NCBI GenBank assembly: GCA_002189035.1 | Contig: NEEC01000281.1 | Coordinates: forward strand, 1-35,589 | From: Utricularia gibba | Lineage: Eukaryota > Streptophyta > Magnoliopsida > Lamiales > Lentibulariaceae | Length of the DNA stretch: 35,589 nt | Direction: 5' to 3' | Part shown: positions 3,255-35,589 of the stretch, one piece after another | Position numbering within the stretch: position 1 is the first letter of the stretch | Layout: every line of letters begins with the position of its first letter | Translations under genes and position numbers: made by a program | Notes under the pieces: model-generated | What the model saw: the letters and a program-made list of their open reading frames with translations, nothing else | What the model was told of the DNA's origin: nothing | The model's database searches: none

Positions 3255-3258
3255 AGGC

Positions 3259-3268: not shown

Positions 3269-3328
3269 CAATCTTTCGAGCATTTGTGCAGCCTCGGACG
3301 AACAAGTTCTCAACACGAAAGAAGACCG

Positions 3329-3341: not shown

Positions 3342-3367
3342 TTCGAAACGGTATGATATGTGCAACA

Positions 3368-10250: not shown

Positions 10251-10830
10251 CAAGATATCCACTCGATACCGAAGAGTGCACGAGGCCACCATGAGGTGTG
10301 GCTAGGGACACACCCTTAAATGATCATCTCGAAATCCAAAATTTCACATCGTCCATGAAATACATATGTCTTGCATGTCAAAAATCACATTCGCATCGAG
10401 TCAGGTGTCCGAGTCACATTTTCGCGAACGTGGTGGCCACTTCGTTGCACATCTGAAGGCTAATATAAGGCAATCTTTCGAAAATTCTCAACATCGTCCC
10501 ATGAAATACATACGTCTTGCAGGGACACCCCTGTCAAAAAAAATTTCACATTCGCATCGAGTCAGGTGGTCCCGAGTCACATTTTCGCGAATGTGGTTTG
10601 GCCACTTCGTTGCACATCTGAAGGCTAATATAAGGAAATCAAAATTTCACATCGTCCCATCGAGTCATTTCGCATGAGTCAGCTCTCGGACGACATCTGA
10701 AGGCTAATATAAGGCAATCTTTCGAGCATTTGTGCAGCCTCGGACGAACAAGTTCTCAACACGAAAGAAGACCGGCTCGGAACGAGCTTCGAAACGGTAT
10801 GATATGTGCAACATGACTCATCACCGTTCG
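10251..10830 (+). repeat. Rearranged satellite zone 1c (580 bp composite)
   Basis: Normal to about 10480, including a CGAACGTGG-type site, then interrupted: TTTCGAAAATTCTCAAC leads back to CATCGTCCCATG. Next comes ACGTCTTGCAGGGACACCCCTGTC, in which a piece of the variable segment (AGGGACACCC) is spliced into TTGCATGTC. A second partial pass through the middle of the monomer follows at 10541-10640, with small insertions such as GTGGTTTGGCC. At 10637-10692 fragments of the AAAATTTCACATCG and CGAGTCA parts are run together before the normal core resumes at 10694. Confidence 0.78.
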
Positions 10831-12733: not shown

Positions 12734-13093
12734 TCCCGATGAACGATACATATGTCAACATGACTCATCACCGTTCGCAAGATATCCACTCGATACCGAA
12801 GAGTGCACGAGGCCACCATGAGGTGGTGGCTAGGGACACACATTTAAATGATCATCTCGAAATCATTTCACATCGAGAAATACAGGTGTCAAAAATCACA
12901 TTCGAGAGTCAGGTGTCCCGAGTCACATTTTCGCGAATGTGGTGGCCACTTCGTTGCACATCTGAAGGCTAATATAAGGCAATCTTTCGAGCATTTGTGC
13001 AGCTCGGACGAACAAGTTCTCAACACGAAAGAAGACCGGCTCGGAACGAGCTTGAAACGGTATGATATGTGCAACATGACTCATCACCATTTG
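12734..13093 (+). repeat. Two truncated monomers at a deletion junction
   Basis: The copy at 12522 runs normally to CACATCTGAAGGCT (12734) and then passes through about 20 bp (CCCGATGAACGATACATATG) straight to TCAACATGACTCATC, losing about 90 bp that include TAATATAAGG and the GCTCG hairpin. The next copy (12778-13093, 316 bp) is shortened in its A/T-rich part (CGAAATCATTTCACATCG, AGAAATACAGGTGTC, ATTCGAGAGTC), then normal from the CGAGTCA repeat onward apart from GAGCTTGAAACG. These are two nearby lesions in adjacent monomers. Confidence 0.8.
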
Positions 13094-16000
13094 CAAGATA
13101 TCCACTCGATACCGAAGAGTGCACGAGGCCACCATGAGGTTGTGGCTAGGGACACACCCTGGCATCTTAAATGATCATCTCGAAATCCAAATTTCACATT
13201 GTCCCATGAAATACATATGTCTTGCATGTCAAAAATCACATTCGCATCGAGTCAGGTGTCCCGAGTCACATTTTCGCGAATGTGGTGGCCACTTCGTTGC
13301 ACATCTGAAGGCTAATATAAGGCAATCTTTCGAGCATTTGTGCTCTCGGACGAACAAGTTCTCAACACGAAAAAAGACCGGCTCGGAACGAGCTTCGAAA
13401 CGGTATGATTGTGCAACATGACTCATCACCGTTTGCAAGATATCCACTCGATACGAAGAGTGCACGAGGCCACCATGAGGTTGTGGCTAGCACACCATGG
13501 CATCTTAAAGATCATCTCGAAATCCAAATTTCACATCGTCCTGAAATACATATGTTTGCATGTCAAAAATCACATTCGCATCGAGTCAGGTGTCCCGAGT
13601 CACATTTCGCGAATGGTGGCCACTTCGTTGCACATCTGAAGGCTAATATAAGGCAATCTTTCGAGCATTTGTGCAGCCTCGGACGAACAAGTTCTCAACA
13701 CGAAAGAAGACCGGCTCGGAACGAGCTTCGAAACGGTATGATATGTGCAACATGACTCATCACCGTTCGCAAGATATCCACTCGATACCGAAGAGTGCAC
13801 GAGCACCATGAGGTGGTGGCTAGGGACACACCTTAAATGATCATCTCGAAATCCAAATTTCACATCGTCCCATGAAATCATACGTCTTGCATGTCAAAAA
13901 TCAATTCGCATCGAGTCAGGTGTCCCGAGTCACATTTTCGCGAATGTGGTGGCCACTTCGTTGCACATCTGAAGGCTAATATAAGGCAATCTTCGAGCAT
14001 TTGTGCCTCTCGGACGAACAAGTTCTCAACACGAAAGAAGACCGGCTCGGAACGAGCTTCGAAACGGTATGATATGTGCAACATGACTCATCACCGTTCG
14101 CAAGATATCCACTCGATACCGAAGAGTGCACGAGGCCACCATGAGGTGGTGGCTAGGGACACACCCTTAAATGATCATCTCGAAATCCAAAATTTCACAT
14201 CGTCCCATGAAATACATACGTCTTGCATGTCAAAAATCACATTCGCATCGAGTCAGGTGTCCCGAGTCACATTTTCGCGAATGTGGTGGCCACTTCGTTG
14301 CACATCTGAAGGCTAATATAAGGCAATCTTTCGAGCATTTGTGCAGCCTCGGACGAACAAAGTTCTCAACACGAAAGAAGACGGCTCGGAACGAGCTTCG
14401 AAACGGTATGATATGCAACATGACTCATCACCGTTCGCAAGATATCCATCGATACCGAAGAGTGCACGAGGCCACCATGAGGTGTGGCTAGGGACACACC
14501 CTTAAATGATCATCTCGAAATCCAAATTTCACATCGTCCCATGAAATACATACGTCTTGCATGTCAAAAATCACATTCGCATCGAGTCAGGTGTCCCGAG
14601 TCACATTTTCGCGAATGTGGTGGCCACTTCGTTGCACATCTGAAGGCTAATATAAGGCAATCTTTCGAGCATTTGTGCAGCTCGGACGAACAAGTTCTCA
14701 ACACGAAAGAAGACCGGCTCGGAACGAGCTTCGAAACGGTATGATATGTGCAACATGACTCATCACCGTTCGCAAGATATCCACTCGATACCGAAGAGTG
14801 CACGAGGCCACCATGAGGTGTGGCTAGGGACACACCCTTAAATGATCATCTCGAAATCCAAAATTTTCACATCGTCCCATGAAATACATACGTCTTGCAT
14901 GTCAAAAATCACATTCGCATCGAGTCAGGTGTCCCGAGTCACATTTTCGCGAATGTGGTGGCCACTTCGTTGCACATCTGAAGGCTAATATAAGGCAATC
15001 TTTCGAGCATTTGTGCAGCTCGGACGAACAAGTTCTCAACACGAAGAAGACCGGCTCGGAACGAGCTTCGAAACGGTATGATATGTGCAACATGACTCAT
15101 CACCGTTCGCAAGATATCCACTCGATACCGAAGAGTGCACGAGGCCACCATGAGGTGTGGCTAGGGACACACCCTGGCATCTTAAATGATCATCTCGAAA
15201 TCCAAATTTCACATCGTCCCATGAAATAATACGTCTTGCATGTCAAAAATCACATTCGCATCGAGTCAGGTGTCCCGAGTCACATTTCGCGAATGTGGTG
15301 GCCACTTCGTTGCACATCTGAAGGCTAATATAAGGCAATCTTTAGCATTTGTGCAGCCTCGGACGAACAAGTTCTCAACACGAAAGAAGACCGGCTCGGA
15401 ACGAGCTTCGAAACGGTATGATATGTGCAACATGACTCATCACCGTTCGCAAGATATCCACTCGATACCGAAGAGTGCACGAGGCCACCATGAGGTGGTG
15501 GCTAGGGACACACCCTTAAATGATCATCTCGAAATCCAAAATTTCACATCGTCCATGAAATACATACGTCTTGCATGTCAAAAATCACATTCGCATCGAG
15601 TCAGGTGTCCCGAGTCACATTTTCGCGAATGTGGTGGCCACTTCGTTGCACATCTGAAGGCTAATATAAGGCAATCTTTCGAGCATTTGTGCAGCCTCGG
15701 ACGAACAAGTTCTCAACACGAAAGAAGACTGGCTCGGAACGAGCTTCGAAACGGTATGATATGTGCAACATGACTCATCACCGTTCGCAAGATATCCACT
15801 CGATACCGAAGAGTGCACGAGGCCACCATGAGGTTGTGGCTAGGGACACACCCATCTTAAATGATCATCTCGAAATCCAAATTTCACATCGTCCCATGAA
15901 ATACATACGTCTTGCATGTCAAAAATCACATTCGCATCGAGTCAGGTGTCCCGAGTCACATTTTCGCGAACGTGGTGGCCACTTCGTTGCACATCTGAAG

Positions 16001-17473
16001 GCTAATATAAGGCAATCTTTCGAGCATTTGTGCAGCCTCGGACGAACAAGTTCTCAACACGAAAGAAGACCGGCTCGGAACGAGCTTCGAAACGGTATGA
16101 TATGTGCAACATGACTCATCACCGTTTGCAAGATATCCACTCGATACCGAAGAGTGCACGAGGCCACCATGAGGTTGTGGCTAGGGACACACCCATCTTA
16201 AATGATCATCTCGAAATCCAAATTTCACATCGTCCCATGAAATACATACGTCTTGCATGTCAAAAATCACATTCGCATCGAGTCAGGTGTCCCGAGTCAC
16301 ATTTTCGCGAACGTGGTGGCCACTTCGTTGCACATCTGAAGGCTAATATAAGGCAATCTTTCGAGCATTTGTGCCTCTCGGACGAACAAGTTCAACACGA
16401 AAGAAGACCGGCTCGGAACGAGCTTCGAAACGGTATGATATGTGCAACATGACTCATCACCGTTCGCAAGATATCCACTCGATACCGAAGAGTGCACGAG
16501 GCCACCATGAGGTGTGGCTAGGGACACACCCTGGCATCTTAAATCATCTCGAAATCCAAATTTCACATCGTCCCATGAAATACATACGTCTTGCATGTCA
16601 AAAATCACATTCGCATCGTCAGGTGTCCCGAGTCACATTTCGCGAATGGTGGCCACTTCGTTGCACATCTGAAGGCTAATATAAGGCAATCTTTCGAGCA
16701 TTTGTGCAGCCTCGGACGAACAAGTTCTCACACGAAAGAAGACCGGCTCGGAACGAGCTTCGAAACGGTATGATATGTGCAACATGACTCATCACCGTTC
16801 GCAAGATATCCACTCGATACCGAAGAGTGCACGAGGCCACCATGAGGTGGTGGCTAGGGACACACCCTTAAATGATCATCTCGAAATCCAAAATTTCACA
16901 TCGTCCCATGAAATACATACGTCTTGCATGTCAAAAATCATTCGCATCGAGTCAGGTGTCCCGAGTCACATTTTCGCGAATGTGGTGGCCACTTCGTTGC
17001 ACATCTGAAGGCTAATATAAGGCAATCTTTCGAGCATTTGTGCCCTCGGACGAACAAGTTCTCAACACGAAAGAAGACCGGCTCGGAACGAGCTTCGAAA
17101 CGGTATGATATGTGCAACATGACTCATCACCGTTCGCAAGATATCCACTCGATACCGAAGAGTGCACGAGGCCACCATGAGGTGGTGGCTAGGGACACAC
17201 CCTTAAATGATCATCTCGAATCCAAAATTTCACATCGTCCATGAAATACATACGTCTTGCATGTCAAAAATCACATTCGCATCGAGTCAGGTGTCCCGAG
17301 TCACATTTTCGCGAATGTGGTGGCCACTTCGTTGCACATCTGAAGGCTAATATAAGGCAATCTTTCGAGCATTTGTGCAGCCTCGGACGAACAAGTTCTC
17401 AACACGAAAGAAGACTGGCTCGGAACGAGCTTCGAAACGGTATGATATGTGCAACATGACTCATCACCGTTCG
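13094..17473 (+). repeat. Regular satellite block C with nine-monomer periodicity
   Basis: Monomers start at 13094, 13436, 13770, 14101, 14438, 14773, 15110, 15450, 15788, 16129, 16467, 16802 and 17137. Rare variants recur nine monomers apart. 13094 and 16129 both begin after TTTG with GTTGTGG. 13436 and 16467 both have GGCATCTTAAA and the unusual CGAATGGTGGCC, which lacks a TG. 13770 and 16802 are both shortened in ATCACATTCGC (ATCAATTCGC, ATCATTCGC) and both have a shortened GCAGCCTCGG (GCCTCTCGG, GCCCTCGG). The spacings are 3035, 3031 and 3032 bp. This matches positions 4-6 of the nine-mer in 23551-34660, including the A-rich ACGAAAAAAGACC of 13094, also seen at 25909 and 31974. Diagnostic variants for the other six positions are not shared, so the two arrays are related but not identical. 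Confidence 0.78.
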
Positions 17474-17529
17474 CAAGATATCCACTCGATAACGGTTATG
17501 ATATGTGCAACATGACTCATCACCGTTCG
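17474..17529 (+). repeat. 56 bp monomer remnant
   Basis: The monomer beginning at 17474 reads CAAGATATCCACTCGAT and then jumps to AACGGTTATGATATGTGC at the end of a monomer, so only the first 17 bp and last ~39 bp remain. The join is at or near GAT/AACGG, where the donor parts are GATACCG and GAAACGG, consistent with slippage or unequal recombination between short similar words. It produces a back-to-back duplication of the ATATGTGC to ATATCC stretch. Confidence 0.85.
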
Positions 17530-19606
17530 CAAGATATCCACTCGATACCGAAGAGTGCACGAGGCCACCATGAGGTGGTGGCTAGGGACACACCTTAAAT
17601 GATCATCTCGAAATCCAAAATTTCACATCGTCCCATGAAATACATACGTCTTGCATGTCAAAAATCACATTCGCATCGAGTCAGGTGTCCCGAGTCACAT
17701 TTTCGCGAATGTGGTGGCCACTTCGTTGCACATCTGAAGCTAATATAAGGCAATCTTTCGAGCATTTGTGCAGCCTCGGACGAACAAGTTCTCAACACGA
17801 AAGAAGACCGGCTCGGAACGAGCTTCGAAACGGTATGATATGTGCAACATGACTCATCACCGTTCGCAAGATATCCACTCGATACCGAAGAGTGCACGAG
17901 GCCACCATGAGGTGGTGGCTAGGGACACACCTTAAATGATCATCTCGAAATCCAAAATTTCACATCGTCCATGAAATACATACGTCTTGCATGTCAAAAA
18001 TCACATTCGCATCGAGTCAGGTGTCCCGAGTCACATTTCGCGAATGTGGTGGCCACTTCGTTGCACATCTGAAGCTAATATAAGGCAATCTTTCGAGCAT
18101 TTGTGCAGCCTCGGACGAACAAGTTCTCAACACGAAAGAAGACCGGCTCGGAACGAGCTTCGAAACGGTATGATATGTGCAACATGACTCATCACCGTTC
18201 GCAAGATATCCACTCGATACCGAAGAGTGCACGAGGCCACCATGAGGTGGTGGCTAGGGACACACCCTTAAATCATCTCGAAATCCAAAATTTCACATCG
18301 TCCCATGAAATACATACGTCTTGCATGTCAAAAATCACATTCGCATCGAGTCAGGTGTCCCGAGTCACATTTCGCGAATGTGGTGGCCACTTCGTTGCAC
18401 ATCTGAAGGCTAATATAAGGCAATCTTTCGAGCATTTGTGCAGCTCGGACGAACAAGTTCTCAACACGAAAGAAGACCGGCTCGGAACGAGCTTCGAAAC
18501 GGTATGATATGTGCAACATGACTCATCACCGTTCGCAAGATATCCACTCGATACGAAGAGTGCACGAGGCCACCATGAGGTGTGGCTAGGGACACACCCT
18601 TAAATGATCATCTCGAAATCCAAAATTTCACATCGTCCCATGAAATACATACGTCTTGCATGTCAAAAATCACATTCGCATCGAGTCAGGTGTCCCGAGT
18701 CACATTTTCGCGAATGTGGTGGCCACTTCGTTGCACATCTGAAGCTAATATAAGGCAATCTTTCGAGCATTTGTGCAGCCTCGACGAACAAGTTCTCAAC
18801 ACGAAAGAAGACCGGCTCGGAACGAGCTTCGAAACGGTATGATATGTGCAACATGACTCATCACCGTTCGCAAGATATCCACTCGATACCGAAGAGTGCA
18901 CGAGGCCACCATGAGGTGGTGGCTAGGACACACCCTTAAATGATCATCTCGAAATCCAAAATTTCACATCGTCCCATGAAATACATGTCAAAAATCACAT
19001 TCGCATCGAGTCAGGTGTCCCGAGTCACATTTTCGTGTGGTGGCCACTTCGTTGCACATCTGAAGGCTAATATAAGGCAATCTTTCGAGCATTTGTGCAG
19101 CGAACAAGTTCTCAACACGAAAAAGACCGGCTCGGAACGAGCTTCGAAACGGTATGATATGTGCAACATGACTCATCACCGTTCGCAAGATATCCACTCG
19201 ATACCGAAGAGTGCACGAGGCCACCATGAGGTCTAGGGACACACATCTTAAATGATCATCTCGAAATCCAAAATTTCACATCGTCCCATGAAATACATAC
19301 GTCTTGCATGTCAAAAATCACATTCGCATCGAGTCAGGTGTCCCGAGTCACATTTTCGCGAATGTGGTGGCCACTTCGTTGCACATCTGAAGGCTAATAT
19401 AAGGCAATCTTTCGAGCATTTGTGCAGCCTCGGACGAACAAGTTCTCAACACGAAAGAAGACCGGCTCGGAACGAGCTTCGAAACGGTATGATATGTGCA
19501 ACATGACTCATCACCGTTCGCAAGATATCCACTCGATACCGAAGAGTGCACGAGGCCACCATGAGGTGGTGGCTAGGACACACATCTTAAATGATCATCT
19601 CGAAAT
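17530..19606 (+). repeat. Regular satellite block D with locally shared deletions
   Basis: Monomers start at 17530, 17867, 18202, 18536, 18871, 19186 and 19521, the last breaking at about 19607. Those at 17530, 17867 and 18536 share loss of one G in CTGAAGGCTAAT (CTGAAGCTAAT), a change seen elsewhere only at 21858, 22193, 22526 and 30490. The copy at 18871 (315 bp) lacks CATACGTCTTG-region bases (AAATACATGTC), is shortened at TTTTCGTGTGGTGG and at GCAGCGAAC, and is the first in the window with CTAGGACAC instead of CTAGGGACAC. Confidence 0.9.
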
Positions 19607-20126
19607 CCTTAAAAATACATATGTCTTGCATGTCAAAAATCACATTCGCATCGAGTCAGGTGTCCCGAGTCAATTTCACATCGTCCCATGAAATACACAC
19701 GAAAGAAGACCGGCTCGGAACGAGCTTCGAAACGTATGCATGTCAAAAATCACATTCGCATCGACTTCGTTGCACATCTGAAGGCTAATATAAGGCAATC
19801 TTTCGAGCATTTGTGCAGCCTCGTCAGAAACGGTATGATATGTGCAACATGACTCATCACCGTTCGCAAGATATCCACTCGATACCGTGAGGTTGTGGCT
19901 AGGGACACACCCTCATCTCGAAATCCGATGTCAAAAAATCACATTCGCATCGAGTCAGTGTCCCGAGTCGTGGTGGCCACTTCGTTGCACATCTGAAGGC
20001 TAATATAAGGCAATCTTTCGAGCATTTGTGCAGCCTCGGACGAACAAGTTCTCAACACGAAAGAAGACCGGCTCGGAACGAGCTTCGAAACGGTATGATA
20101 TGTGCAACATGACTCATCACCGTTCG
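19607..20126 (+). repeat. Rearranged satellite zone 2a
   Basis: The copy that began at 19521 breaks at ATCCTTAAAAATACATATG. It later jumps from CCCGAGTC back to AATTTCACATCGTCCCATG, then forward to ACACGAAAGAAGACC and back to GCATGTCAAAAATC before reaching the normal core at 19769. Near 19820 the end of the monomer is compressed (CAGCCTCGTCAGAAACGG). The next copy (19867-20126, 260 bp) lacks most of the GAAGAGTGCACGAGGCC part and the AAAATTTCACATCG to TTGCATG part, then is normal from GTGGTGGCCAC onward. Confidence 0.78.
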
Positions 20127-20995
20127 CAAGATATCCACTCGATACCGAAGAGTGCACGAGGCCACCATGAGGTGGTGGCTAGGGACACACCTTAAATGAT
20201 CATCTCGAAATCCAAAATTTCACATCGTCCCATGAAATACATACGTCTTGCATGTCAAAAATCACATTCGCATCGAGTCAGGTGTCCCGAGTCACATTTT
20301 CGCGAATGTGGTGGCCACTTCGTTGCACATCTGAAGGCTAATTCGAGCATAAGGCAATCGAGCTTCGAAACGGTATGATATGTGAGCATTTGTGCAGCCT
20401 CGGACGAATGATCAAGTTCTCAACACGATTCGCATCGAAGACGGCTCGGAACGAGCTTCATTTGTGCCTCTCGGACGGTATGATATGTGCAACATGACTC
20501 ATCACCGTTCGCAAGATATCCACTCGATACCGAAGAGTGCACGAGGCCACCATGAGGTGGTGGCTAGGGACATTAAATGATCATCAAAATCGATCGTCCC
20601 ATGAAATACATACGTCTTGCATCAAAAATCACATCATCGAGTCCCATCCCGAGTCACAAATACATACGTCTTGCATGTCAAAAATCACATTCGCATCAAT
20701 CTTTCGAGGTGTGTGAGTCAGCATTTCGCGAATGTGGTGGCCACTTCGCAAATCTGAAGAGGGCAATCTTTCGAGCATTTGTGCAGCCTCGAGACGAACA
20801 AAACGGTTTCAACATGTGCAACATGACTCATCACCGTTCGCAAGATATCCACTCGATACCGAAGAGTGCACGAGGCCACCATGAGGTTGTGGAACGAGCT
20901 TCGAAACACACATCTTATATGTGCAACATGACTCATCACCGTTCGCAAGATCGTCCACATGAAATATACCGAAGAGTGCACGAGGCCACCATGAG
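20127..20995 (+). repeat. Rearranged satellite zone 2b, the most shuffled stretch
   Basis: The first 214 bp (20127-20340) is normal. From 20341 fragments alternate: TTCGAGCAT and AAGGCAATC interchange, GAGCTTCGAAACGG moves ahead of GTGCAGCCTCGG, and ATGATC and TTCGCATCG are inserted into the ACAAGTTCTC and CGAAAGAAGAC parts. The copy at 20512 is shortened at its start (GGACATTAAATGATC) and has CATACGTCTTGCAT twice (20610-20676) with different right flanks. At 20893-20945 a GAACGAGCTTCGAAACAC fragment is joined to ACATCTTATATGTGC, giving a second ATATGTGC to CGCAAGAT pass only 105 bp after the first (monomer anchors 20841 and 20946). At 20950-20972 ATCGTCCACATGAAATATACC splices two distant parts of the monomer. 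Confidence 0.8.
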
Positions 20996-21585
20996 GTGGT
21001 GGCTAGGGACACACCTTAAATGATCATCTCGAAATCCAAAATTTCACATCGTCCCATGAAATACATACGTCTTGCATGTCAAAAATCACATTCGCATCGA
21101 GTCAGGTGTCCCGAGTCACATTTCGCGAATGTGGTGGCCACTTCGTTGCACATCTGAAGGCTAATATAAGGCAATCTTTCGAGCATTTGTGCAGCCTCGG
21201 ACGAACAAGTTCTCAACACGAAAGAAGACCGGCTCGGAACGAGCTTCGAAACGGTATGATATGTGCAACATGACTCATCACCGTTCGCAAGATATCCACT
21301 CGATACCGAAGAGTGCACGAGGCCACCATGAGGTGGTGCTAGGGACACACCCCTTAAATGATCATCTCGAAATCCAAAATTTCACATCGTCCCATGAAAT
21401 ACATACGTCTTGCATGTCAAAAATCACATTCGCATCGAGTCAGGTGTCCCGAGTCACATTTCGCGAATGTGGTGGCCACTTCGTTGCACATCTGAAGGCT
21501 AATATAAGGCAATCTTTCGAGCATTTGTGCAGCCTCGGACGAACAAGTTCTCAACACGAAAAGAAGACCGGCTCGGAACGAGCTT
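20996..21585 (+). repeat. Regular satellite block between two shuffled stretches
   Basis: The remainder of the monomer anchored at 20946 and the one starting at 21288, normal up to GGAACGAGCTTC at about 21586. Both have the three-T form ACATTTCGCG, and the three following copies do as well. Confidence 0.9.
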
Positions 21586-21712
21586 CTAGGACACACCCTT
21601 AAATATGATATGTCGCAAATCATGACTCATCACACATCGTTCCCAAAAATACATACTCGATACCGAAGAGTGCACGAGGCAAACCATCACAGGTGGAGTG
21701 GCTAGGGACACA
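21586..21712 (+). repeat. Rearranged satellite zone 2c (short)
   Basis: After GAACGAGCTTC the sequence passes through TAGGACACACCCTTAAATA, a misplaced piece of the variable segment, then ATGATATGTCGCAAATCATG, ACTCATCACACATCG, TTCCCAAAAATACATACTCG and GATACCGAAGAGTGCACG, where the normal order resumes. GAGGCAAACCATCACAGG then carries several small insertions relative to GAGGCCACCATGAGG. It bridges the end of one monomer and the start of the next. Confidence 0.78.
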
Positions 21713-22653
21713 CCTTAAATGATCATCTCGAAATCCAAAATTTCACATCGTCCCATGAAATACATACGTCTTGCATGTCAAAAATCACATTCGCATCGAG
21801 TCAGGTGTCCCGAGTCACATTTCGCGAATGTGGTGGCCACTTCGTTGCACATCTGAAGCTAATATAGGCAATCTTTCGAGCATTTGTGCAGCCTCGGACG
21901 AACAAGTTCTCAACACGAAAGAAGACCGGCTCGGAACGAGCTTCGAAACGGTATGATATGTGCAACATGACTCATCACCGTTCGCAAGATATCCACTCGA
22001 TACCGAAGAGTGCACGAGGCCACCATGAGGTGGTGGCTAGGGACACACCTTAAATGATCATCTCGAAATCCAAAATTTCACATCGTCCCATGAAATACAT
22101 ACGTCTTGCATGTCAAAAATCACATTCGCATCGAGTCAGGTGTCCCGAGTCACATTTCGCGAATGTGGTGGCCACTTCGTTGCACATCTGAAGCTAATAT
22201 AAGGCAATCTTTCGAGCATTTGTGCCCTCGGACGAACAAGTTCTCAACACGAAAGAAGACCGGCTCGGAACGAGCTTCGAAACGGTATGATATGTGCAAC
22301 ATGACTCATCACCGTTCGCAAGATATCCACTCGATACCGAAGAGTGCACGAGGCCACCATGAGGTTGTGGCTAGGGACACACCCTTAAATGATCATCTCG
22401 AAATCCAAAATTTCACATCGTCCCATGAAATACATACGTCTTGCATGTCAAAAATCACATTCGCATCGAGTCAGGTCCCGAGTCACATTTCGCGAATGTG
22501 GTGGCCACTTCGTTGCACATCTGAAGCTAATATAAGGCAATCTTTCGAGCATTTGTGCAGCCTCGGACGAACAAGTTCTCAACACGAAAGAAGACCGGCT
22601 CGGAACGAGCTTCGAAACGGTATGATATGTGCAACATGACTCATCACCGTTCG
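21713..22653 (+). repeat. Regular satellite block E with shared single-base losses
   Basis: This covers the rest of a monomer entered at about 21660 and the copies at 21985 and 22319. All three share both the CTGAAGCTAAT loss (21858, 22193, 22526) and the three-T ACATTTCGCG form, as does 17867. The 335 bp spacing between the first two matches that of the pair at 17739 and 18074, 4119 bp to the left. Confidence 0.9.
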
Positions 22654-22880
22654 CAAGATATCCACTCGATACCGAAGAGTGCACGAGGCCACCATCAGGT
22701 GTCCCGAGTCACATTTTCGCGAACGTGGTGGCCACTTCGTTGCACATCTGAAGGCTAATATAAGGCAATCTTCGAGCATTTGTGCCTCCTCGGACGAACA
22801 AGTTCTCAACACGAAAGAAGACCGGCTCGGAACGAGCTTCGAAACGGTATGATATGTGCAACATGACTCATCACCGTTCG
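22654..22880 (+). repeat. Satellite monomer with clean ~110 bp internal deletion
   Basis: This 227 bp copy joins GAGGCCACCAT directly to CAGGTGTCCCGAGTC at about 22695, removing the variable segment, ATGATCAT, the A/T-rich part and the first CGAGTCA. The rest is normal. It carries GAACGTGG and GCCTCCTCGG, variants otherwise concentrated to its right. The join is simple, unlike the shuffled zones, and fits a single deletion event. Confidence 0.85.
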
Positions 22881-23550
22881 CAAGATATCCACTCGATACC
22901 GAAGAGTGCACGAGGCCACCATGAGGTGTGGCTAGGACACACCCTTAAATGATCATCTCGAAATCCAAAATTTCACATCGTCCCATGAAATACATACGTC
23001 TTGCATGTCAAAAATCACATTCGCATCGAGTCAGGTGTCCCGAGTCACATTTTCGCGAACGTGGTGGCCACTTCGTTGCACATCTGAAGGCTAATATAAG
23101 GCAATCTTTCGAGCATTTGTGCAGCCTCGGACGAACAAGTTCTCAACACGAAAGAAGACGGCTCGGAACGAGCTTCGAAACGGTATGATATGTGCAACAT
23201 GACTCATCACCGTTGCAAGATATCCACTCGATACCGAAGAGTGCACGAGGCCACCATGAGGTGGCTAGGGACACACCTTAAATGATCATCTCGAAATCCA
23301 AAATTTCACATCGTCCCATGAAATACATACGTCTTGCATGTCAAAAATCACATTCGCATCGAGTCAGGTGTCCCGAGTCACATTTTCGCGAATGTGGTGG
23401 CCACTTCGTTGCACATCTGAAGGCTAATATAAGGCAATCTTTCGAGCATTTGTGCAGCCTCGGACGAACAAGTTCTCAACACGAAAGAAGACCGGCTCGG
23501 AACGAGCTTCGAAACGGTATGATATGTGCAACATGACTCATCACCGTTCG
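22881..23550 (+). repeat. Regular satellite monomers leading into the higher-order array
   Basis: Two 335 bp copies start at 22881 and 23216. The first has CTAGGACAC, CGAACGTGG and GAAGACGGC; the second has a shortened GAGGTGGCTAGGG and begins after CCGTTG. They lie at positions 4 and 5 if the nine-mer phase of the next block is extended leftward, but only the CGAACGTGG of 22881 fits, so I place the higher-order boundary after them. Confidence 0.85.
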
Positions 23551-24900
23551 CAAGATATCCACTCGATACCGAAGAGTGCACGAGGCCACCATGAGGTGTG
23601 GCTAGGACACACCCTTAAATGATCATCTCGAAATCCAAAATTTCACATCGTCCCATGAAATACATACGTCTTGCATGTCAAAAATCACATTCGCATCGAG
23701 TCAGGTGTCCCGAGTCACATTTTCGCGAATGTGGTGGCCACTTCGTTGCACATCTGAAGGCTAATATAAGGCAATCTTTCGAGCATTTGTGCCCTCGGAC
23801 GAACAAGTTCTCAACACGAAAGAAGACCGGCTCGGAACGAGCTTCGAAACGGTATGATATGTGCAACATGACTCATCACCGTTCGCAAGATATCCACTCG
23901 ATACCGAAGAGTGCACGAGGCCACCATGAGGTGTGGCTAGGGACACACCCTTAAATGATCATCTCGAAATCCAAAATTTCACATCGTCCCATGAAATACA
24001 TACGTCTTGCATGTCAAAAATCACATTCGCATCGAGTCAGGTGTCCCGAGTCACATTTTCGCGAAGTGGTGGCCACTTCGTTGCACATCTGAAGGCTAAT
24101 ATAAGGCAATCTTTCGAGCATTTGTGCAGCCTCGGACGAACAAGTTCTCAACACGAAAGAAGACGGCTCGGAACGAGCTTCGAAACGGTATGATATGTGC
24201 AACATGACTCATCACCGTTCGCAAGATATCCACTCGATACCGAAGAGTGCACGAGGCCACCATGAGGTTGTGGCTAGGGACACACCCCATCTTAAATGAT
24301 CATCTCGAAATCCAAAATTTCACATCGTCCCATGAAATACATACGTCTTGCATGTCAAAAATCACATTCGCATCGAGTCAGGTGTCCCGAGTCACATTTT
24401 CGCGAATGTGGTGGCCACTTCGTTGCACATCTGAAGGCTAATATAAGGCAATCTTTCGAGCATTTGTGCAGCCTCGGACGAACAAGTTCTCAACACGAAA
24501 GAAGACCGGCTCGGAACGAGCTTCGAAACGGTATGATATGTGCAACATGACTCATCACCGTTTGCAAGATATCCACTCGATACCGAAGAGTGCACGAGGC
24601 CACCATGAGGTTGTGGCTAGGACACAGCATCTTAAATGATCATCTCGAAAAAAAATTTCACATCGTCCCATGAAATACATATGTCTTGCATGTCAAAAAT
24701 CACATTCGCATCGAGTCAGTGTCCCGAGTCACATTTTCGCGAATGTGGTGGCCACTTCGTTGCACATCTGAAGGCTAATATAAGGCAATCTTTCGAGCAT
24801 TTGTGCAGCTCGGACGAACAAGTTCTCAACACGAAAGAAGACCGGCTCGGAACGAGCTTCGAAACGGTATGATATGTGCAACATGACTCATCACCGTTTG

Positions 24901-27900
24901 CAAGATATCCACTCGATACCGAAGAGTGCACGAGGCCACCATGAGGTTGTGGCTAGGGACACACATCTTAAATGATCATCTCGAAATCCAAAATTTCACA
25001 TCGTCCCATGAAATACATATGTCTTGCATGTCAAAAATCACATTCGCATCGAGTCAGGTGTCCCGAGTCACATTTTCGCGAACGTGGTGGCCACTTCGTT
25101 GCACATCTGAAGGCTAATATAAGGCAATCTTTCGAGCATTTGTGCCTCCTCGGACGAACAAGTTCTCAACACGAAAGAAGACCGGCTCGGAACGAGCTTC
25201 GAAACGTATGATATGTGCAACATGACTCATCACCGTTCGCAAGATATCCACTCGATACCGAAGAGTGCACGAGGCCACCATGAGGTGTGGCTAGGGACAC
25301 ACCCTTAAATGATCATCTCGAAATCCAAAATTTCACATCGTCCATGAAATACATACGTCTTGCATGTCAAAAATCACATTCGCATCGAGTCAGGTGTCCC
25401 GAGTCACATTTTCGCGAATGTGGTGGCCACTTCGTTGCACATCTGAAGGCTAATATAAGGCAATCTTTCGAGCATTTGTGCAGCCTCGGACGAACAAGTT
25501 CTCAACACGAAAAAGACCGGCTCGGAACGAGCTTCGAAACGGTATGATATGTGCAACATGACTCATCACCGTTCGCAAGATATCCACTCGATACCGAAGA
25601 GTGCACGAGGCCACCATGATGGCTAGGGACACACCCCATCTTAAATGATCATCTCGAAATCCAAATTTCACATCGTCCATGAAATACATACGTTGCATGT
25701 CAAAAATCACATTCGCATCGAGTCAGGTGTCCCGAGTCACATTTTCGCGAATGTGGTGGCCACTTCGTTGCACATCTGAAGGCTAATATAAGGCAATCTT
25801 TCGAGCATTTGTGCAGCTCGGACGAACAAGTTCTCAACACGAAAGAAGACCGGCTCGGAACGAGCTTCGAAACGGTATGATATGTGCAACATGACTCATC
25901 ACCGTTTGCAAGATATCCACTCGATACCGAAGAGTGCGAGGCCACCATGAGGTTGTGGCTAGGACACACCCCATCTTAAATGATCATCTCGAAATCCAAA
26001 TTTCACATCGTCCCATGAAATACATACGTCTTGCATGTCAAAAATCACATTCGCATCGCACGAGTCGTTTGTTTTTGGTGGCCACTTCGTTGCACATCTG
26101 AAGGCTAATATAAGGCAATCTTTCGAGCATTTGTGCCTCCTCGGACGAACAAGTTCTCAACACGAAAAAAGACCGGCTCGGAACGAGCTTCGAAACGGTA
26201 TGATATGTGCAACATGACTCATCACCGTTTGCAAGATATCCACTCGACCGAAGAGTGCACGAGGCCACCATGAGGTTTGGCTAGACACACCCATGGCATC
26301 TTAAATGATCATCTCGAAATCCAAAATTTCACATCGTCCCATGAAATACATATGTCTTGCATGTCAAAAATCACATTCGCATCGAGTCAGGTGTCCCGAG
26401 TCACATTTTCGCGACGTGGTGGCCACTTCGTTGCACATCTGAAGGCTAATATAAGGCAATCTTTCGAGCATTTGTGCAGCCTCGGACGAACAAGTTCTCA
26501 ACACGAAAGAAGACCGGCTCGGAACGAGCTTCGAAACGGTATGATATGTGCAACATGACTCATCACCGTTCGCAAGATATCCACTCGATACCGAAGAGTG
26601 CACGAGGCCACCATGAGGTGTGGCTAGGACACACCCTTAAATGATCATCTCGAAATCCAAAATTTCACATCGTCCCATGAAATACATACGTCTTGCATGT
26701 CAAAAATCACATTCGCATCGAGTCAGGTCCCGAGTCACATTTTCGCGAATGTGGTGGCCACTTCGTTGCACATCTGAAGGCTAATATAAGGCAATCTTTC
26801 GAGCATTTGTGCCCTCGGACGAACAAGTTCTCAACACGAAAGAAGACCGGCTCGGAACGAGCTTCGAAACGGTATGATATGTGCAACATGACTCATCACC
26901 GTTCGCAAGATATCCACTCGATACCGAAGAGTGCACGAGGCCACCATGAGGTGTGGCTAGGGACACACCTTAAATGATCATCTCGAAATCCAAAATTTCA
27001 CATCGTCCCATGAAATACATACGTCTTGCATGTCAAAAATCACATTCGCATCGAGTCAGGTGTCCCGAGTCACATTTTCGCGAATGTGGTGGCCACTTCG
27101 TTGCACATCTGAAGGCTAATATAAGGCAATCTTTCGAGCATTTGTGCACTCGGACGAACAAGTTCTCAACACGAAAGAAGACCGGCTCGGAACGAGCTTC
27201 GAAACGGTATGATATGTGCAACATGACTCATCACCGTTCGCAAGATATCCACTCGATACCGAAGAGTGCACGAGGCCACCATGAGGTTGTGGCTAGGGAC
27301 ACACATCTTAAATGATCATCTCGAAATCCAAAATTTCACATCGTCCATGAAATACATACGTCTTGCATGTCAAAAATCACATTCGCATCGAGTCAGGTGT
27401 CCCGAGTCACATTTTCGCGAATGTGGTGGCCACTTCGTTGCACATCTGAAGGCTAATATAAGGCAATCTTTCGAGCATTTGTGCAGCTCGGACGAACAAG
27501 TTCTCAACACGAAAGAAGACCGGCTCGGAACGAGCTTCGAAACGGTATATGATATGTGCAACATGACTCATCACCGTTAAGATATCCACTCGATACCGAA
27601 GAGTGCACGAGGCCACCATGAGGTGTGGCTAGGACACACCCCATCTTAAATGATCATCTCGAAATCCGAAATTTCACATCGTCCATGAAATACATATGTC
27701 TTGCATGTCAAAAATCACATTCGCATCGAGTCAGGTGTCCCGAGTCACATTTTCGCGAATGTGGTGGCCACTTCGTTGCACATCTGAAGGCTAATATAAG
27801 GCAATCTTTCGAGCATTTGTGCAGCCTCGGACGAACAAGTTCTCAACACGAAAGAAGACCGGCTCGGAACGAGCTTCGAAACGGTATGATATGTGCAACA

Positions 27901-27917
27901 TGACTCATCACCGTTTG
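24901..27917 (+). repeat. Higher-order unit copy 1 (nine monomers, 3017 bp)
   Basis: Monomers start at 24901, 25240, 25576, 25909, 26232, 26573, 26906, 27241 and 27579. It is shorter than the other complete copies, partly because the fourth monomer (25909, 323 bp) carries the local lesion at 26059-26078. The monomer at 27579 begins CCGTTAAGAT, having lost the variable C/T site, and has ATATGATATG by a small duplication. Confidence 0.7.
26059..26078 (+). repeat. Local replacement inside a monomer
   Basis: In the monomer starting at 25909 the sequence runs ATTCGCATCG, then CACGAGTCGTTTGTTTTTGG, then TGGCCACTTCG. The CGAGTCA repeat and TTCGCGAA palindrome are lost and replaced by about 20 bp of T-rich sequence. 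This is one of few lesions in an otherwise regular 11 kb stretch. Confidence 0.75.
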
Positions 27918-30900
27918 CAAGATATCCACTCGATACCGAAGAGTGCACGAGGCCACCATGAGGTTGTGGCTAGGACACACCCCATCTTAAATGATCATCT
28001 CGAAATCCGAAATTTCACATCGTCCCATGAAATACATATGTCTTGCATGTCAAAAATCACATTCGCATCGAGTCAGGTGTCCCGAGTCACATTTTCGCGA
28101 ACGTGGTGGCCACTTCGTTGCACATCTGAAGGCTAATATAAGGCAATCTTTCGAGCATTTGTGCTCCTCGGACGAACAAGTTCTCAACACGAAAGAAGAC
28201 CGGCTCGGAACGAGCTTCGAAACGGTATGATATGTGCAACATGACTCATCACCGTTCGCAAGATATCCACTCGATACCGAAGAGTGCACGAGGCCACCAT
28301 GAGGTGTGCTAGGGACACACCCTTAAATGATCATCTCGAAATCCAAAATTTCACATCGTCCCATGAAATACATACGTCTTGCATGTCAAAAATCACATTC
28401 GCATCGAGTCAGGTGTCCCGAGTCACATTTTTCGCGAATGTGGTGGCCACTTCGTTGCACATCTGAAGGCTAATATAAGGCAATCTTTCGAGCATTTGTG
28501 CAGCTCGGACGAACAAGTTCTCAACACGAAAGAAGACCGGCTCGGAACGAGCTTCGAAACGGTATGATATGTGCAACATGACTCATCACCGTTCGCAAGA
28601 TATCCACTCGATACCGAAGAGTGCACGAGGCCACCATGAGGTGTGGCTAGGACACACCCCTTAAATGATCATCTCGAAATCCAAAATTTCACATCGTCCC
28701 ATGAAATACATACGTCTTGCATGTCAAAAATCACATTCGCATCGAGTCAGTGTCCCGAGTCACATTTTCGCGAATGTGGTGGCCACTTCGTTGCACATCT
28801 GAAGGCTAATATAAGGCAATCTTTCGAGCATTTGTGCAGCCTCGGACGAACAAGTTCTCAACACGAAAGAAGACCGGCTCGGAACGAGCTTCGAAACGGT
28901 ATGATATGTGCAACATGACTCATCACCGTTTGCAAGATATCCACTCGATACCGAAGAGTGCACGAGGCCACCATGAGGTTGTGGCTAGGGACACAGCATC
29001 TTAAATGATCATCTCGAAATCCAAATTTCACATCGTCCCATGAAATACATATGTCTTGCATGTCAAAAATCACATTCGCATCGAGTCAGGTGTCCCGAGT
29101 CACATTTTCGCGAACGTGGTGGCCACTTCGTTGCACATCTGAAGGCTAATATAAGGCAATCTTTCGAGCATTTGTGCCCTCGGACGAACAAGTTCTCAAC
29201 ACGAAAAAGACGGCTCGGAACGAGCTTCGAAACGGTATGATATGTGCAACATGACTCATCACCGTTTTGCAAGATATCCACTCGATACCGAAGAGTGCAC
29301 GAGGCCACCATGAGGTTGTGGCTAGGACACACCATGGCATCTTAAATGATCATCTCGAAATCCAAAATTTCACATCGTCCCATGAAATACATATGTTTTG
29401 CATGTCAAAAATCACATTCGCATCGAGTCAGGTGTCCCGAGTTTCGCGAACGTGGTGGCCACTTCGTTGCACATCTGAAGGCTAATATAAGGCAATCTTT
29501 CGAGCATTTGTGCAGCCTCGGACGAACAAGTTCTCAACACGAAAGAAGACGGCTCGGAACGAGCTTCGAAACGGTATGATATGTGCAACATGACTCATCA
29601 CCGTTCGCAAGATATCCACTCGATACCGAAGAGTGCACGAGGCCACCATGAGGTGTGGCTAGGGACACACCCTTAAATGATCATCTCGAAATCCAAAATT
29701 TCACATCGTCCCATGAAATACATACGTCTTGCATGTCAAAAATCACATTCGCATCGAGTCAGGTGTCCCGAGTCACATTTTCGCGAATGTGGTGGCCACT
29801 TCGTTGCACATCTGAAGGCTAATATAAGGCAATCTTTCGAGCATTTGTGCCCTCGGACGAACAAGTTCTCAACACGAAAGAAGACCGGCTCGGAACGAGC
29901 TTCGAAACGGTATGATATGTGCAACATGACTCATCACCGTTCGCAAGATATCCACTCGATACCGAAGAGTGCACGAGGCCACCATGAGGTGTGGCTAGGG
30001 ACACACCCCTTAAATGATCATCTCGAAATCCAAAATTTCACATCGTCCCATGAAATACATACGTCTTGCATGTCAAAAATCACATTCGCATCGAGTCAGG
30101 TGTCCCGAGTCACATTTTCGCGAAATGTGGTGGCCACTTCGTTGCACATCTGAAGGCTAATATAAGGCAATCTTTCGAGCATTTGTGCAGCCTCGGACGA
30201 ACAAGTTCTCAACACGAAAGAAGAGGCTCGGAACGAGCTTCGAAACGGTATGATATGTGCAACATGACTCATCACCGTTCGCAAGATATCCACTCGATAC
30301 CGAAGAGTGCACGAGGCCACCATGAGGTTGTGGCTAGGACACACCCTTAAATGATCATCTCGAAATCAAAATTTCACATCGTCCCATGAAATACATATGT
30401 CTTGCATGTCAAAAATCACATTCGCATCGAGTCAGGTGTCCCGAGTCACATTTTCGCGAATGTGGTGGCCACTTCGTTGCACATCTGAAGCTAATATAAG
30501 GCAATCTTTCGAGCATTTGTGCAGCCTCGGACGAACAAGTTCTCAACACGAAAGAAGACCGGCTCGGAACGAGCTTCGAAACGGTATGATATGTGCAACA
30601 TGACTCATCACCATTTGCAAGATATCCACTCGATACCGAAGAGTGCACGAGGCCACCATGAGGTTGTGGCTAGGGACACACATCTTAAATGATCATCTCG
30701 AAATCCAAAATTTCACATCGTCCCATGAAATACATATGTCTTGCATGTCAAAAATCACATTCGCATCGAGTCAGGTGTCCCGAGTCACATTTTCGCGAAT
30801 GTGGTGGCCACTTCGTTGCACATCTGAAGGCTAATATAAGGCAATCTTTCGAGCATTTGTGCAGCCTCGGACGAACAAGTTCTCAACACGAAAGAAGACC

Positions 30901-30957
30901 GGCTCGGAACGAGCTTCGAAACGGTATGATATGTGCAACATGACTCATCACCGTTTG
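27918..30957 (+). repeat. Higher-order unit copy 2 (nine monomers, 3040 bp)
   Basis: Monomers start at 27918, 28259, 28596, 28933, 29270, 29608, 29944, 30282 and 30618. It contains the best-preserved pair of position-4 and position-5 monomers (28933 and 29270, both CGAACGTGG), the GCCCTCGG form at position 6 and the GAAGAGGCTCG form at position 7. The monomer at 29270 also lost CACAT within GAGTCACATTTTCGCG (GAGTTTCGCG). Confidence 0.7.
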
Positions 30958-33900
30958 CAAGATATCCACTCGATACCGAAGAGTGCACGAGGCCACCATG
31001 AGGTTGTGGCTAGGACACACACATCTTAAATGATCATCTCGAAATCCAAAATTTCACATCGTCCCATGAAATACATACGTCTTGCATGTCAAAAATCACA
31101 TTCGCATCGAGTCAGGTGTCCCGAGTCACATTTTCGCGAACGTGGTGGCCACTTCGTTGCACATCTGAAGGCTAATATAAGCAATCTTTCGAGCATTTGT
31201 GCCTCCTCGGACGAACAAGTTCTCAACACGAAAGAAGACCGGCTCGGAACGAGCTTCGAAACGGTATGATATGTGCAACATGACTCATCACCGTTCGCAA
31301 GATATCCACTCGATACCGAAGAGTGCACGAGGCCACCATGAGGTGTGGCTAGGACACACACCTTAAATGATCATCTCGAAATCCAAAATTTCACATCGTC
31401 CCATGAAATACATACGTCTTGCATGTCAAAAATCACATTCGCATCGAGTCAGGTGTCCCGAGTCACATTTTCGCGAATGTGGTGGCCACTTCGTTGCACA
31501 TCTGAAGGCTAATATAAGGCAATCTTTCGAGCATTTGTGCAGCTCGGACGAACAAGTTCTCAACACGAAAGAAGCGGCTCGGAACGAGCTTCGAAACGGT
31601 ATGATATGTGCAACATGACTCATCACCGTTCGCAAGATATCCACTCGATACCGAAGAGTGCACGAGGCCACCATGAGGTGGTGGCTAGGGACACACCCCA
31701 TTAAATGATCATCTCGAAATCCAAAATTTCACATCGTCCCATGAAATACATACGTCTTGCATGTCAAAAATCACATTCGCATCGAGTCAGGTGTCCCGAG
31801 TCACATTTTCGCGAATGTGGTGGCCACTTCGTTGCACATCTGAAGGCTAATATAAGGCAATCTTTCGAGCATTTGTGCAGCCTCGGACGAACAAGTTCTC
31901 AACACGAAAGAAGACCGGCTCGGAACGAGCTTCGAAACGGTATGATATGTGCAACATGACTCATCACCATTTGCAAGATATCCACTCGATACCGAAGAGT
32001 GCACGAGGCCACCATGAGGTTGTGGCTAGGGACACACATCTTAAATGATCATCTCGAAATCCAAAATTTCACATCGTCCATGAAATACATACGTCTTGCA
32101 TGTCAAAAATCACATTCGCATCGAGTCAGGTGTCCCGAGTCACATTTTCGCGAACGTGGTGGCCACTTCGTTGCACATCTGAAGGCTAATATAAGGCAAT
32201 CTTTCGAGCATTTGTGCCTCCTCGGACGAACAAGTTCTCAACACGAAAAAAGACCGGCTCGGAACGAGCTTCGAAACGGTATTATGTGCAACATGACTCA
32301 TCACCGTTCGCAAGATATCCACTCGATACCGAAGAGTGCACGAGGCCACCATGAGGTTGTGGCTAGACACACCCCATCTTAAATGATCATCTCGAAATCC
32401 AAAATTTCACATCGTCCCATGAAATACATATGTTTTGCATGTCAAAAATCACATTCGCATCGTCAGGTGTCCCGAGTCACATTTTCGCGAACGTGGTGGC
32501 CACTTCGTTGCACATCTGAAGGCTAATATAAGGCAATCTTTCGAGCATTTGTGCAGCCTCGGACGAACAAGTCTCAACACGAAAGAAGACCGGCTCGGAA
32601 CGAGCTTCGAAACGGTATGATATGTGCAAACATGACTCATCACCGTTCGCAAGATATCCACTCGATACCGAAGAGTGCACGAGGCCACCATGAGGTGGTG
32701 GCTAGGGACACACCCTTAAATGATCATCTCGAAATCCAAAATTTCACATCGTCCCATGAAATACATACGTCTTGCATGTCAAAAATCACATTCGCATCGA
32801 GTCAGGTGTCCCGAGTCACATTTTCGCGAATGTGGTGGCCACTTCGTTGCACATCTGAAGGCTAATATAAGGCAATCTTTCGAGCATTTGTGCAGACGAA
32901 CAAGTTCTCAACACGAAAGAAGACCGGCTCGGAACGAGCTTCGAAACGGTATGATATGTGCAACATGACTCATCACCGTTCGCAAGATATCCACTCGATA
33001 CCGAAGAGTGCACGAGGCCACCATGAGGTTGTGGCTAGGACACACCCTTAAATGATCATCTCGAAATCCAAAATTTCACATCGTCCCATGAAATACATAC
33101 GTCTTGCATGTCAAAAATCACATTCGCATCGAGTCAGGTGTCCCGAGTCACATTTTCGCGAATGTGGTGGCCACTTCGTTGCACATCTGAAGGCTAATAT
33201 AAGGCAATCTTTCGAGCATTTTGTGCTCGGACGAACAAGTTCTCAACACGAAAGAAGAGGCTCGAACGAGCTTCGAAACGGTATGATATGTGCAACATGA
33301 CTCATCACCGTTCGCAAGATATCCACTCGATACCGAAGAGTGCACGAGGCCACCATGAGGTTGTGGCTAGGGACACACCCATCTTAAATGATCATCTCGA
33401 AATCCAAAATTTCACATCGTCCCATGAAATACATATGTCTTGCATGTCAAAAATCACATTCGCATCGAGTCAGGTGTCCCGAGTCACATTTTCGCGAATG
33501 TGGTGGCCACTTCGTTGCACATCTGAAGGCTAATATAAGGCAATCTTTCGAGCATTTGTGCAGCCTCGGACGAACAAGTTCTCAACACGAAAGAAGACCG
33601 GCTCGGAACGAGCTTCGAAACGGTATGATATGTGCAACATGACTCATCACCGTTTGCAAGATATCCACTCGATACCGAAGAGTGCACGAGGCCACCATGA
33701 GGTTGTGGCTAGGACACACCCCATCTTAAATGATCATCTCGAAATCCAAAATTTCACATCGTCCCATGAAATACATATGTCTTGCATGTCAAAAATCACA
33801 TTCGCATCGAGTCAGGTGTCCCGAGTCACATTTTCGCGAATGTGGTGGCCACTTCGTTGCACATCTGAAGGCTAATATAAGGCAATCTTTCGAGCATTTG

Positions 33901-33997
33901 TGCAGCTCGGACGAACAAGTTCTCAACACGAAAGAAGACCGGCTCGGAACGAGCTTCGAAACGGTATGATATGTGCAACATGACTCATCACCGTTTG
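30958..33997 (+). repeat. Higher-order unit copy 3 (nine monomers, 3040 bp)
   Basis: Monomers start at 30958, 31298, 31633, 31974, 32311, 32650, 32983, 33315 and 33657. The copy at 31974 begins after CCATTTG, shared with 13094 and 30618. The copy at 32311 has CATCGTCAGG (GAG lost), shared with 16467 in the left nine-mer block. The copy at 32650 has GCAGACGAAC, also seen at 4401. Confidence 0.7.
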
Positions 33998-34660
33998 CAA
34001 GATATCCACTCGATACCGAAGAGTGCACGAGGCCACCATGAGGTGTGGCTAGGGACACACCCCATCTTAAATGATCATCTCGAAATCAAAATTTCACATC
34101 GTCCCATGAAATACATATGTCTTGCATGTCAAAAATCACATTCGCATCGAGTCAGGTGTCCGAGTCACATTTTCGCGAACGTGGTGGCCACTTCGTTGCA
34201 CATCTGAAGGCTAATATAAGGCAATCTTTCGAGCATTTGTGTCGGACGAACAAGTTCTCAACACGAAAGAAGACCGGCTCGGAACGAGCTTCGGTATGAT
34301 ATGTGCAACATGACTCATCACCGTTTGCAAGATATCCACTCGATACCGAAGAGTGCACGAGGCCACCATGAGGTTGTGGCTAGGGACACACCCATCTTAA
34401 ATGATCATCTCGAAATCCGAAATTTCACATCGTCCCATGAAATACATACGTCTTGCAAAAATCACATTCGCATCGAGTCAGGTGTCCCGAGTCACATTTT
34501 CGCGGTGGTGGCCACTTCGTTGCACATCTGAAGGCTAATATAAGGCAATCTTTCGAGCATTTGTGCAGCCTCGGACGAACAAGTTCTCAACACGAAAGAA
34601 GACGGCTCGGAACGAGCTTCGAAACGGTATGATATGTGCAACATGACTCATCACCGTTCG

Positions 34661-35589
34661 CAAGATATCCACTCGATACCGAAGAGTGCACGAGGCCACC
34701 ATGAGGTGTGGCTAGGGACACACCCTTAAATGATCATCTCGAAATCCCAAATTTCACATCGTCCCATGAAAATACATACGTCTTGCATGTCAAAAATCAC
34801 ATTCGCATCGAGTCAGGTGTCCCGAGTCACATTTTTCGCGAATGTGGCCACTTCGTTGCACATCTGAAGGCTAATATAAGGCAATCTTTCGAGCATTTTG
34901 TGCTCGGACGAACAAGTTCTCAACACGAAAGAAGACCGGCTCGGAACGAGCTTCGAAACGGTATGATATGTGCAACATGACTCATCACCGTTCGCAAGAT
35001 ATCCACTCGATACCGAAGAGTGCACGAGGCCACCATGAGGTGTGGCTAGGACACACCCTTAAATGATCATCTCGAAATCCAAAATTTCACATCGTCCCAT
35101 GAAATACATACGTCTTGCATGTCAAAAATCACATTCGCATCGAGTCAGGTGTCCCGAGTCACATTTTCGCGAATGTGGTGGCCACTTCGTTGCACATCTG
35201 AAGGCTAATATAAAGGCAATCTTTCGAGCATTTGTGCAGCCTCGGACGAACAAGTTCTCAACACGAAAGAAGACTGGCTCGGAACGAGCTTCGAAACGGT
35301 ATGATATGTGCAACATGACTCATCACCGTTCGCAAGATATCCACTCGATACCGAAGAGTGCACGAGGCCACCATGAGGTTGTGGCTAGGGACACACCCCA
35401 AATGATCATCTCGAAATCCAAAATTTCACATCGTCCCATGAAATACATACGTCTTGCATGTCAAAAATCACATTCGCATCGAGTCAGGTGTCCCGAGTCA
35501 CATTTTCGCGAATGTGGTGGCCACTTCGTTGCACATCTGAAGGCTAATATAAGGCAATCTTTCGAGCATTTGTGCCTCGGACGAACAAG
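34661..35589 (+). repeat. Regular satellite monomers to the window edge
   Basis: Copies start at 34661 and 34995, and a partial one at 35333 is cut by the window end at ACGAACAAG. The copy at 34995, which would be position 4 of the nine-mer, lacks the diagnostic TTTG start and CGAACGTGG, so the higher-order phase is not maintained here. The copy at 35333 has an unusual CACCCCAAATGATC with the CTTA part lost. Confidence 0.9.

Follow-up and report, generated by a model that had tools for sequence, protein, structure and literature searches.

A contig composed of one satellite family

We analysed contig NEEC01000281.1 of Utricularia gibba (assembly GCA_002189035.1; 100,091,633 bases in 516 contigs), here called C290, which in its full length of 35,589 bases forms the window of this study. 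The window is satellite DNA from end to end, and its right third very probably contains a local nine-monomer higher-order repeat (HOR), at 23549–34325, within a nuclear satellite array. The monomers run head-to-tail and all in one orientation (105 anchors with a median step of 337), and the consensuses of two subfamilies, A and B, cover 99.9% of the contig with matches on one strand only. These are the features of satellite DNA, namely long head-to-tail arrays of one monomer family with a single orientation per array. An Rfam scan of the window returned no match at the gathering threshold, and a phage source for the array was considered and set aside, there being no match to 675 bases. The nine-monomer array showed no coding or RNA role, and its state is likely heterochromatin.

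Monomers one unit apart are unusually alike

The initial annotation had proposed the joint amplification of nine-monomer blocks between 23551 and 34660, and this proposal is supported by lag, period and tree tests. An array is indeed present over that span, although its right edge lies nearer 34325. Monomers of like type start at 24899, 27916, 30956 and 33996 (spacings of 3017, 3040 and 3040), at 25907, 28931 and 31972 (3024 and 3041) and at 26230, 29268 and 32309 (3038 and 3041). The spacings are those originally given, and the original starts are each 2 higher, having been counted from CAAG. Three full units and two partial ones, together about 3.6, follow one another in register.

Monomers of odd length were excluded before the lag and period tests, and the irregular parts of the window at 8110–12776 and 20000–23549 were left out of the period tests. 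In an all-against-all identity matrix of the right third, mean identity is 97.90% at lag nine (26 pairs) and 97.87% at lag eighteen, compared with 97.00–97.51% at lags 1–8. The lag-nine value was reached in none of 2000 shuffles, also with correction over 20 lags, and the same matrix has no lag-nine peak in the left (1–8110) and middle (12776–20000) arrays. Substitutions taken alone separate the lags more sharply, with 1.58 per pair at lag nine, 1.41 at lag eighteen and 2.00 at lag 27 (8 pairs), against an all-pair mean of 3.06 for the 35 right-third monomers (0/2000 shuffles; rows used were 35/35 for the right, 23/24 for the left and 20/21 for the middle array). As expected of an HOR, likeness is greater between monomers one unit apart than between those at other lags.

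A modular period test over periods 2–12 also places nine best in the right third (z −7.0, 0/2000 shuffles). This period is found in one of the 15 array segments tested, that is, in the nine-monomer stretch alone. It was sought and found not significant in the other 14, for each of which the three best periods were reported; two of these segments belong to the window and 12 to a further nine contigs (rows used included 72/100 for C451, 41/60 for C107 at 20–40k, 17/25 for C49, and 29/45 and 23/33 for C331). The left array has a dip at lag 14 (p 0.021), and the period test there is best at 7 (p 0.11).

Substitutions carry the period

The nine-monomer period is carried by substitutions, with gap events showing no dip at lag nine. 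Its strongest contributors are three CpG/TpG sites. With these three marks removed, a weighted shared-variant score is still raised, at lag 9 (p 0.015) as well as at lag 18 (p 0.009); modest support independent of the CpG sites exists. A period borne by indels was rejected, with 5.38 gap events per pair at lag nine and a range of 5.20–6.03 over lags 1–10, 18 and 27. Taken as a class, indels are weak at lag nine (p 0.11, 0.03 or 0.009 according to the score), and at lag 19 their scores are equal or better (p 0.002, 0.011).

Four marks had been described in the initial annotation as independent indels that follow the same phase. They do fall in phase, at 3/4, 3/4, 2/2 and 2/2, with none of 20000 random draws as good, given indices read by eye and a post hoc choice of marks. 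Their description as indels holds less well: the ATATGTTTTG mark is a substitution and the A-run mark is partly one, while GAAGAGGCTCG and ATATGTTTTG are each found in two units only.

The unit is a mixed block of two subfamilies

Consensus A (339 bp) was derived from C198 and C288 (88 monomers) and consensus B (347 bp) from C331 and C107 jointly (65 monomers). The two can be told apart at 11 groups of sites, one of which is an 8-bp CATGGCAT insertion in B. C107 (20–40k) is B at nearly every callable site. C331 is intermediate and is designated B': its 28 typed monomers give no A call at sites 2, 3, 5, 9 and 10, B at site 4 where this is callable (7/28) and no B call at sites 6–8. The subfamily appears on C331 in nearly pure form.

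Typed in this way, phases 0, 3 and 4 of the nine-monomer array are B'-like, and phases 1, 2, 5 and 6 are A save for odd calls. Phase 7 has a B call at site 3, joined in later units by one at site 5, and phase 8 is a hybrid with a B' first half and an A second half (B at sites 2, 3 and 5, A at 9 and 10). The order of the unit is roughly B'-A-A-B'-B'-A-A-A-hybrid, and it was therefore a mixed block of two subfamilies that was amplified. Counting the monomer at 24899 as index 0, the right third has the exact CGAACGTGG site (searched as CGCGAACGTGGTGGCCACTTCG) at indices 0, 9, 12, 13, 18, 21, 22 and 27 only; as read from the sequence, index 4 holds a derivative of it and index 3 has lost it, all in agreement with the initial annotation. 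The monomers bearing CGAACGTGG belong to B', and the site is thus a subfamily allele and not a new mutation of this array. Past index 27 the types depart from the order, index 28 being B-like at the first sites where its phase predicts A, and index 30 being A where B' is predicted.

The tree (58 rows) has mostly weak forks and a bootstrap that had not settled. Within it, a weak fork (55/93) unites the four phase-0 rows and 3/4 phase-3 rows with every row of C331 and C107, and the three phase-4 rows form one group (87/80). Placing the nine phase labels on the tree takes 17 changes, as against 25.9 when they are shuffled, and none of 200 shuffles was as low. For single phases, clustering as strong was seen in 0 of 500 shuffles for phase 4, 1 for phase 7, 21 for phase 3, 23 for phase 5, 28 for phase 0 and 33 for phase 8. 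The resulting map of the window is given in Table 1.

Table 1. Features of the window (contig C290); the edges of 23549..34325 were placed by eye from the diagnostic-site table.
Feature	Position	Strand	Basis
Whole-contig array of ~337-bp monomers	1..35589	+	105 anchors, 99.9% consensus coverage
Left array, mostly subfamily A, nine-monomer order not found	1..8108	+	Lag and period tests
Middle array, mostly A, nine-monomer order not found	12776..19518	+	Lag and period tests
Nine-monomer higher-order array, 32 monomers, ~3.6 units	23549..34325	+	Lag-9 and lag-18 substitution dips, period test, tree, diagnostic sites
Partial unit, phases 5–8	23549..24898	+	Phase-5 mark GCCCTCGG at 23786; hybrid-like phase-8 monomer at 24563
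Unit 1, phases 0–8, 3017 bp	24899..27915	+	Monomer starts, diagnostic sites
Unit 2, 3040 bp	27916..30955	+	Monomer starts, diagnostic sites
Unit 3, 3040 bp	30956..33995	+	Monomer starts, diagnostic sites
Phase-0 monomer of fourth unit, register lost afterwards	33996..34325	+	Indices 28 and 30 of wrong type for phase

Elsewhere in the window, irregular anchor steps (227–697 bp) interrupt the regular array at 8109–10828 and 19865–22878. Across the irregular stretches near 8.1–12.8 kb and 19.9–23 kb no gap between matches to the satellite consensuses exceeds 32 bases, and these stretches therefore consist of rearranged monomers, not large insertions.

Chance and assembly error as sources of the period

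Several observations weigh against a genuine nine-monomer unit. There are only about 3.6 units and some ten informative sites. Without the CpG marks, a lag that is no multiple of nine, lag 19, performs comparably (p 0.018 weighted, 0.002 plain), and a plain mismatch score gives p 0.11 at lag nine and p 0.033 at lag 18, with lag 19 the strongest. In the tree, phases 1, 2 and 6 are unclustered, phases 0 and 8 stand at 6–7% of shuffles and phase 4 is the only one to form a single group. Consensus quality is poor as well, with 132 indel events in the 35 monomers of the right third.

Some of these points are what would be seen if two subfamilies were simply intermixed and the period had arisen by chance: few diagnostic sites hold most of the signal, there are just three full units, and lag 19 is raised once the CpG marks are gone. 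However, none of 2000 shuffles of monomer order matches the values at lags 9 and 18, the phase-4 monomers form one tree group, and the four marks named in the initial annotation are in phase in 10/12. An accidental period is on this evidence very improbable indeed.

A false period could also have been created during assembly, either by laying the same reads at a 3-kb offset or by merging A and B' reads. The source assembly appears to be an HGAP assembly of long reads (PMC5793159), and the longest exact match in the right third, of 346 bases, lies at lag 18, with one of 298 bases at lag nine. The indel events are moreover crowded: 59 of the 132 fall at three sites that differ between the subfamilies (about 7% of columns), a further 51 are in homopolymers, and the other 22 lie outside both. 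Against this, exact matches of 340 and 326 bases are present at lags 8 and 17 also, and gap events between monomers one unit apart are as frequent as those at other lags, so that the units are not copies of one consensus. The same crowding at A/B sites is seen in the left (32/74) and middle (38/101) arrays, both of which are without nine-monomer order, and it probably reflects consensus noise of long-read assembly at hard sites, not something special to the nine-monomer stretch. Judged from the assembled sequence alone, a tiling error is improbable, and we retain the local nine-monomer HOR as the reading of this array.

The likeliest origin of the nine-monomer HOR begins close to a junction of A and B', where exchange or gene conversion would have interspersed B' monomers in an A array. 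Such junctions exist, since C155 carries a B'-like run and then an A run within one contig. One mixed nine-monomer block would then have been duplicated in tandem by out-of-register recombination. The route may have been unequal sister exchange or break-induced replication, both of which figure in the amplification models described in PMC8997354 and between which the sequence here does not separate. Later mutation and conversion may have blurred the marks.

The satellite family elsewhere in the genome

A 25-mer of the A/B family has 1,710 matches genome-wide with up to 2 mismatches, and a 25-mer conserved across subfamilies has 4,967 with up to 3; the reversed control gave none in either case. 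At ~340 bases each, 4,967 copies correspond to about 1.7 Mb of satellite. Samples were also taken from sixteen other contigs, at no fewer than two places in each, with their interiors partly read. Fifteen are satellite wherever sampled (C32, C49, C107, C128, C145, C155, C184, C194, C198, C288, C289, C330, C331, C332 and C334), at 79–98% coverage in some diverged stretches; for C32 the call was made by BLAST at the contig start and by Tandem Repeats Finder elsewhere. The sixteenth, C333, had been picked by number alone and has no satellite at either end. Across the literature searched, the family is named in no title or abstract opening, most full texts being outside the scope of that search.

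Arrays on other contigs show arrangements of their own. C49 and C32 contain a third, diverged subfamily with ~74–79% identity to A/B. At C145:10001–18000 a B'-type array of 22 monomers has a dimeric order (period 2, z −5.1, p 0.002 over periods 2–12), and in C49 a dimer is marginal (p 0.05). The third subfamily at C32:24501–38500 has a dip at lag four (0/2000), which represents at most a local four-monomer block because the modular period test gives it no support (period 4, p 0.997). Near neighbours are excessively alike in C451 (lags 1–2, p 0.006–0.009) and in C107 (lag 1, p 0.029), with no unit in either. Apart from the satellite, the cox1 gene on C515 (267.5 kb) is interrupted by an intron whose reading frame has LAGLIDADG-like motifs, recognised by eye; introns of this type are a pointer to angiosperms.

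Centromere or other heterochromatin

The abundance of the family raises the possibility that it is a functional centromere satellite whose higher-order units are kept by centromere activity. In favour of this are the 4,967 matches of the conserved 25-mer, with none for the reversed control, the many contigs that are satellite at both ends, and the position of the array on C451. This is the sole megabase-size contig in the two full lists, of 37 and 40 places, that a rare variant gave, and it begins in telomere repeats (CCCTAAA) and ends, after 6,822,880 bases, with 34.3 kb of satellite (6788586–6822880). Against it, a potato type II proteinase inhibitor domain (E 1.2e-12) is encoded only 2.9 kb outside the C451 array, and the 11 integrase matches of this contig, among the 150 scored of 708 candidates, lie at 3.12–6.68 Mb, away from the array at 6.79–6.82 Mb.

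C1–C4, which start with telomere repeat (start ends examined), were taken as complete chromosomes, and the exact conserved 25-mer is absent from C1–C31 among the matches listed (100 places, apparently sorted by mismatch and contig), a negative that concerns exact matches and leaves room for diverged copies. Putative centromeric regions of U. gibba have moreover been described as free of satellite repeats (PMC8333044, citing the genome paper). A centromeric role for the family is, on balance, doubtful. As a separate observation, 12 of the 14 scored integrase matches on C4 form a dense cluster at C4:1938611–2050121 (1.94–2.05 Mb). This cluster is a candidate pericentromere, and its 8-kb sample has no match to the satellite, nor has a 7-kb sample of an integrase-rich part of C1.

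A description as non-centromeric heterochromatin, perhaps of the subterminal or knob-like kind, has about an even chance of being correct. It would suit an array that lies at a contig end and 2.9 kb from a gene, and plant arrays outside centromeres also form HORs, including non-centromeric arrays of Salicaceae (PMC12046899). Telomere 7-mers, on the other hand, occur in none of the satellite pieces scanned, nor at the array end of C451. It is also conceivable, though rather unlikely, that this family of 337–347-bp monomers, whose subfamilies number three or more and whose HORs follow different orders (nine here, two on C145), forms the centromeres of chromosomes that were not closed in the assembly, so that satellite and satellite-free centromeres coexist within a single tiny genome.

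Comparison with known satellites

Alpha satellite, to which the initial annotation had likened the array, has a 171-bp monomer in primates and carries a CENP-B box in a subset of its monomers. The architecture bears out the likeness, but the contrast between lags is small here, there are only about 3.6 units, and a scan of the A and B consensuses found no exact CENP-B-box core, with one site in each at up to 2 mismatches. An origin of the monomer from two halves was likewise discarded, self-BLAST of the A consensus giving 9-base matches only and no half-length repeat. As in human alpha satellite HORs, the unit combines distinct monomers that belong to two types and share one orientation (PMC8997354); unlike them, it has monomers of 337–347 bp, a small contrast at the unit lag and few units.

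Among plants, the closest parallels in architecture come from a survey of 171 species with Sanger data, which records HORs in 76 of them, some being plants, and describes HORs of 1,131 bp and 886 bp in switchgrass and an AB dimer in sorghum (PMC4053949). The array shares with these the tandem units of several diagnostic monomers and the presence of related variants in one genome. In switchgrass the two variants were never mixed within reads, whereas here a single unit combines A and B' monomers and nine ~337-bp monomers make up its 3.03 kb. The arrays of Populus and Salix, such as the centromeric Palv156 and the non-centromeric Palv148, illustrate that plant HORs are found both in and out of centromeres (PMC12046899); they differ in having short monomers and CENH3 data. 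Any centromeric role of the present array is putative, given that C1–C4 lack the exact conserved 25-mer among the matches listed and that non-centromeric HORs exist. PpSat1 of Phytophthora parasitica has the same monomer length of 337 bp, a likeness of length and not of compared sequence, and its GC content is 36.8% as against 47.5% here (PMC7290008).

Implications

Since HORs are widespread (PMC4053949) and also occur outside centromeres (PMC12046899), the presence of one here is neither proof of a centromere nor novel in itself. Nested repeats of this kind are already known from many animals and plants; the mixing of subfamilies inside one unit is less usual. Higher-order repeats are a record of how satellite arrays grow. 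For U. gibba, the family either qualifies the published view that the putative centromeres are without satellites or marks a class of heterochromatin that would be mostly missing from the chromosome-scale contigs.

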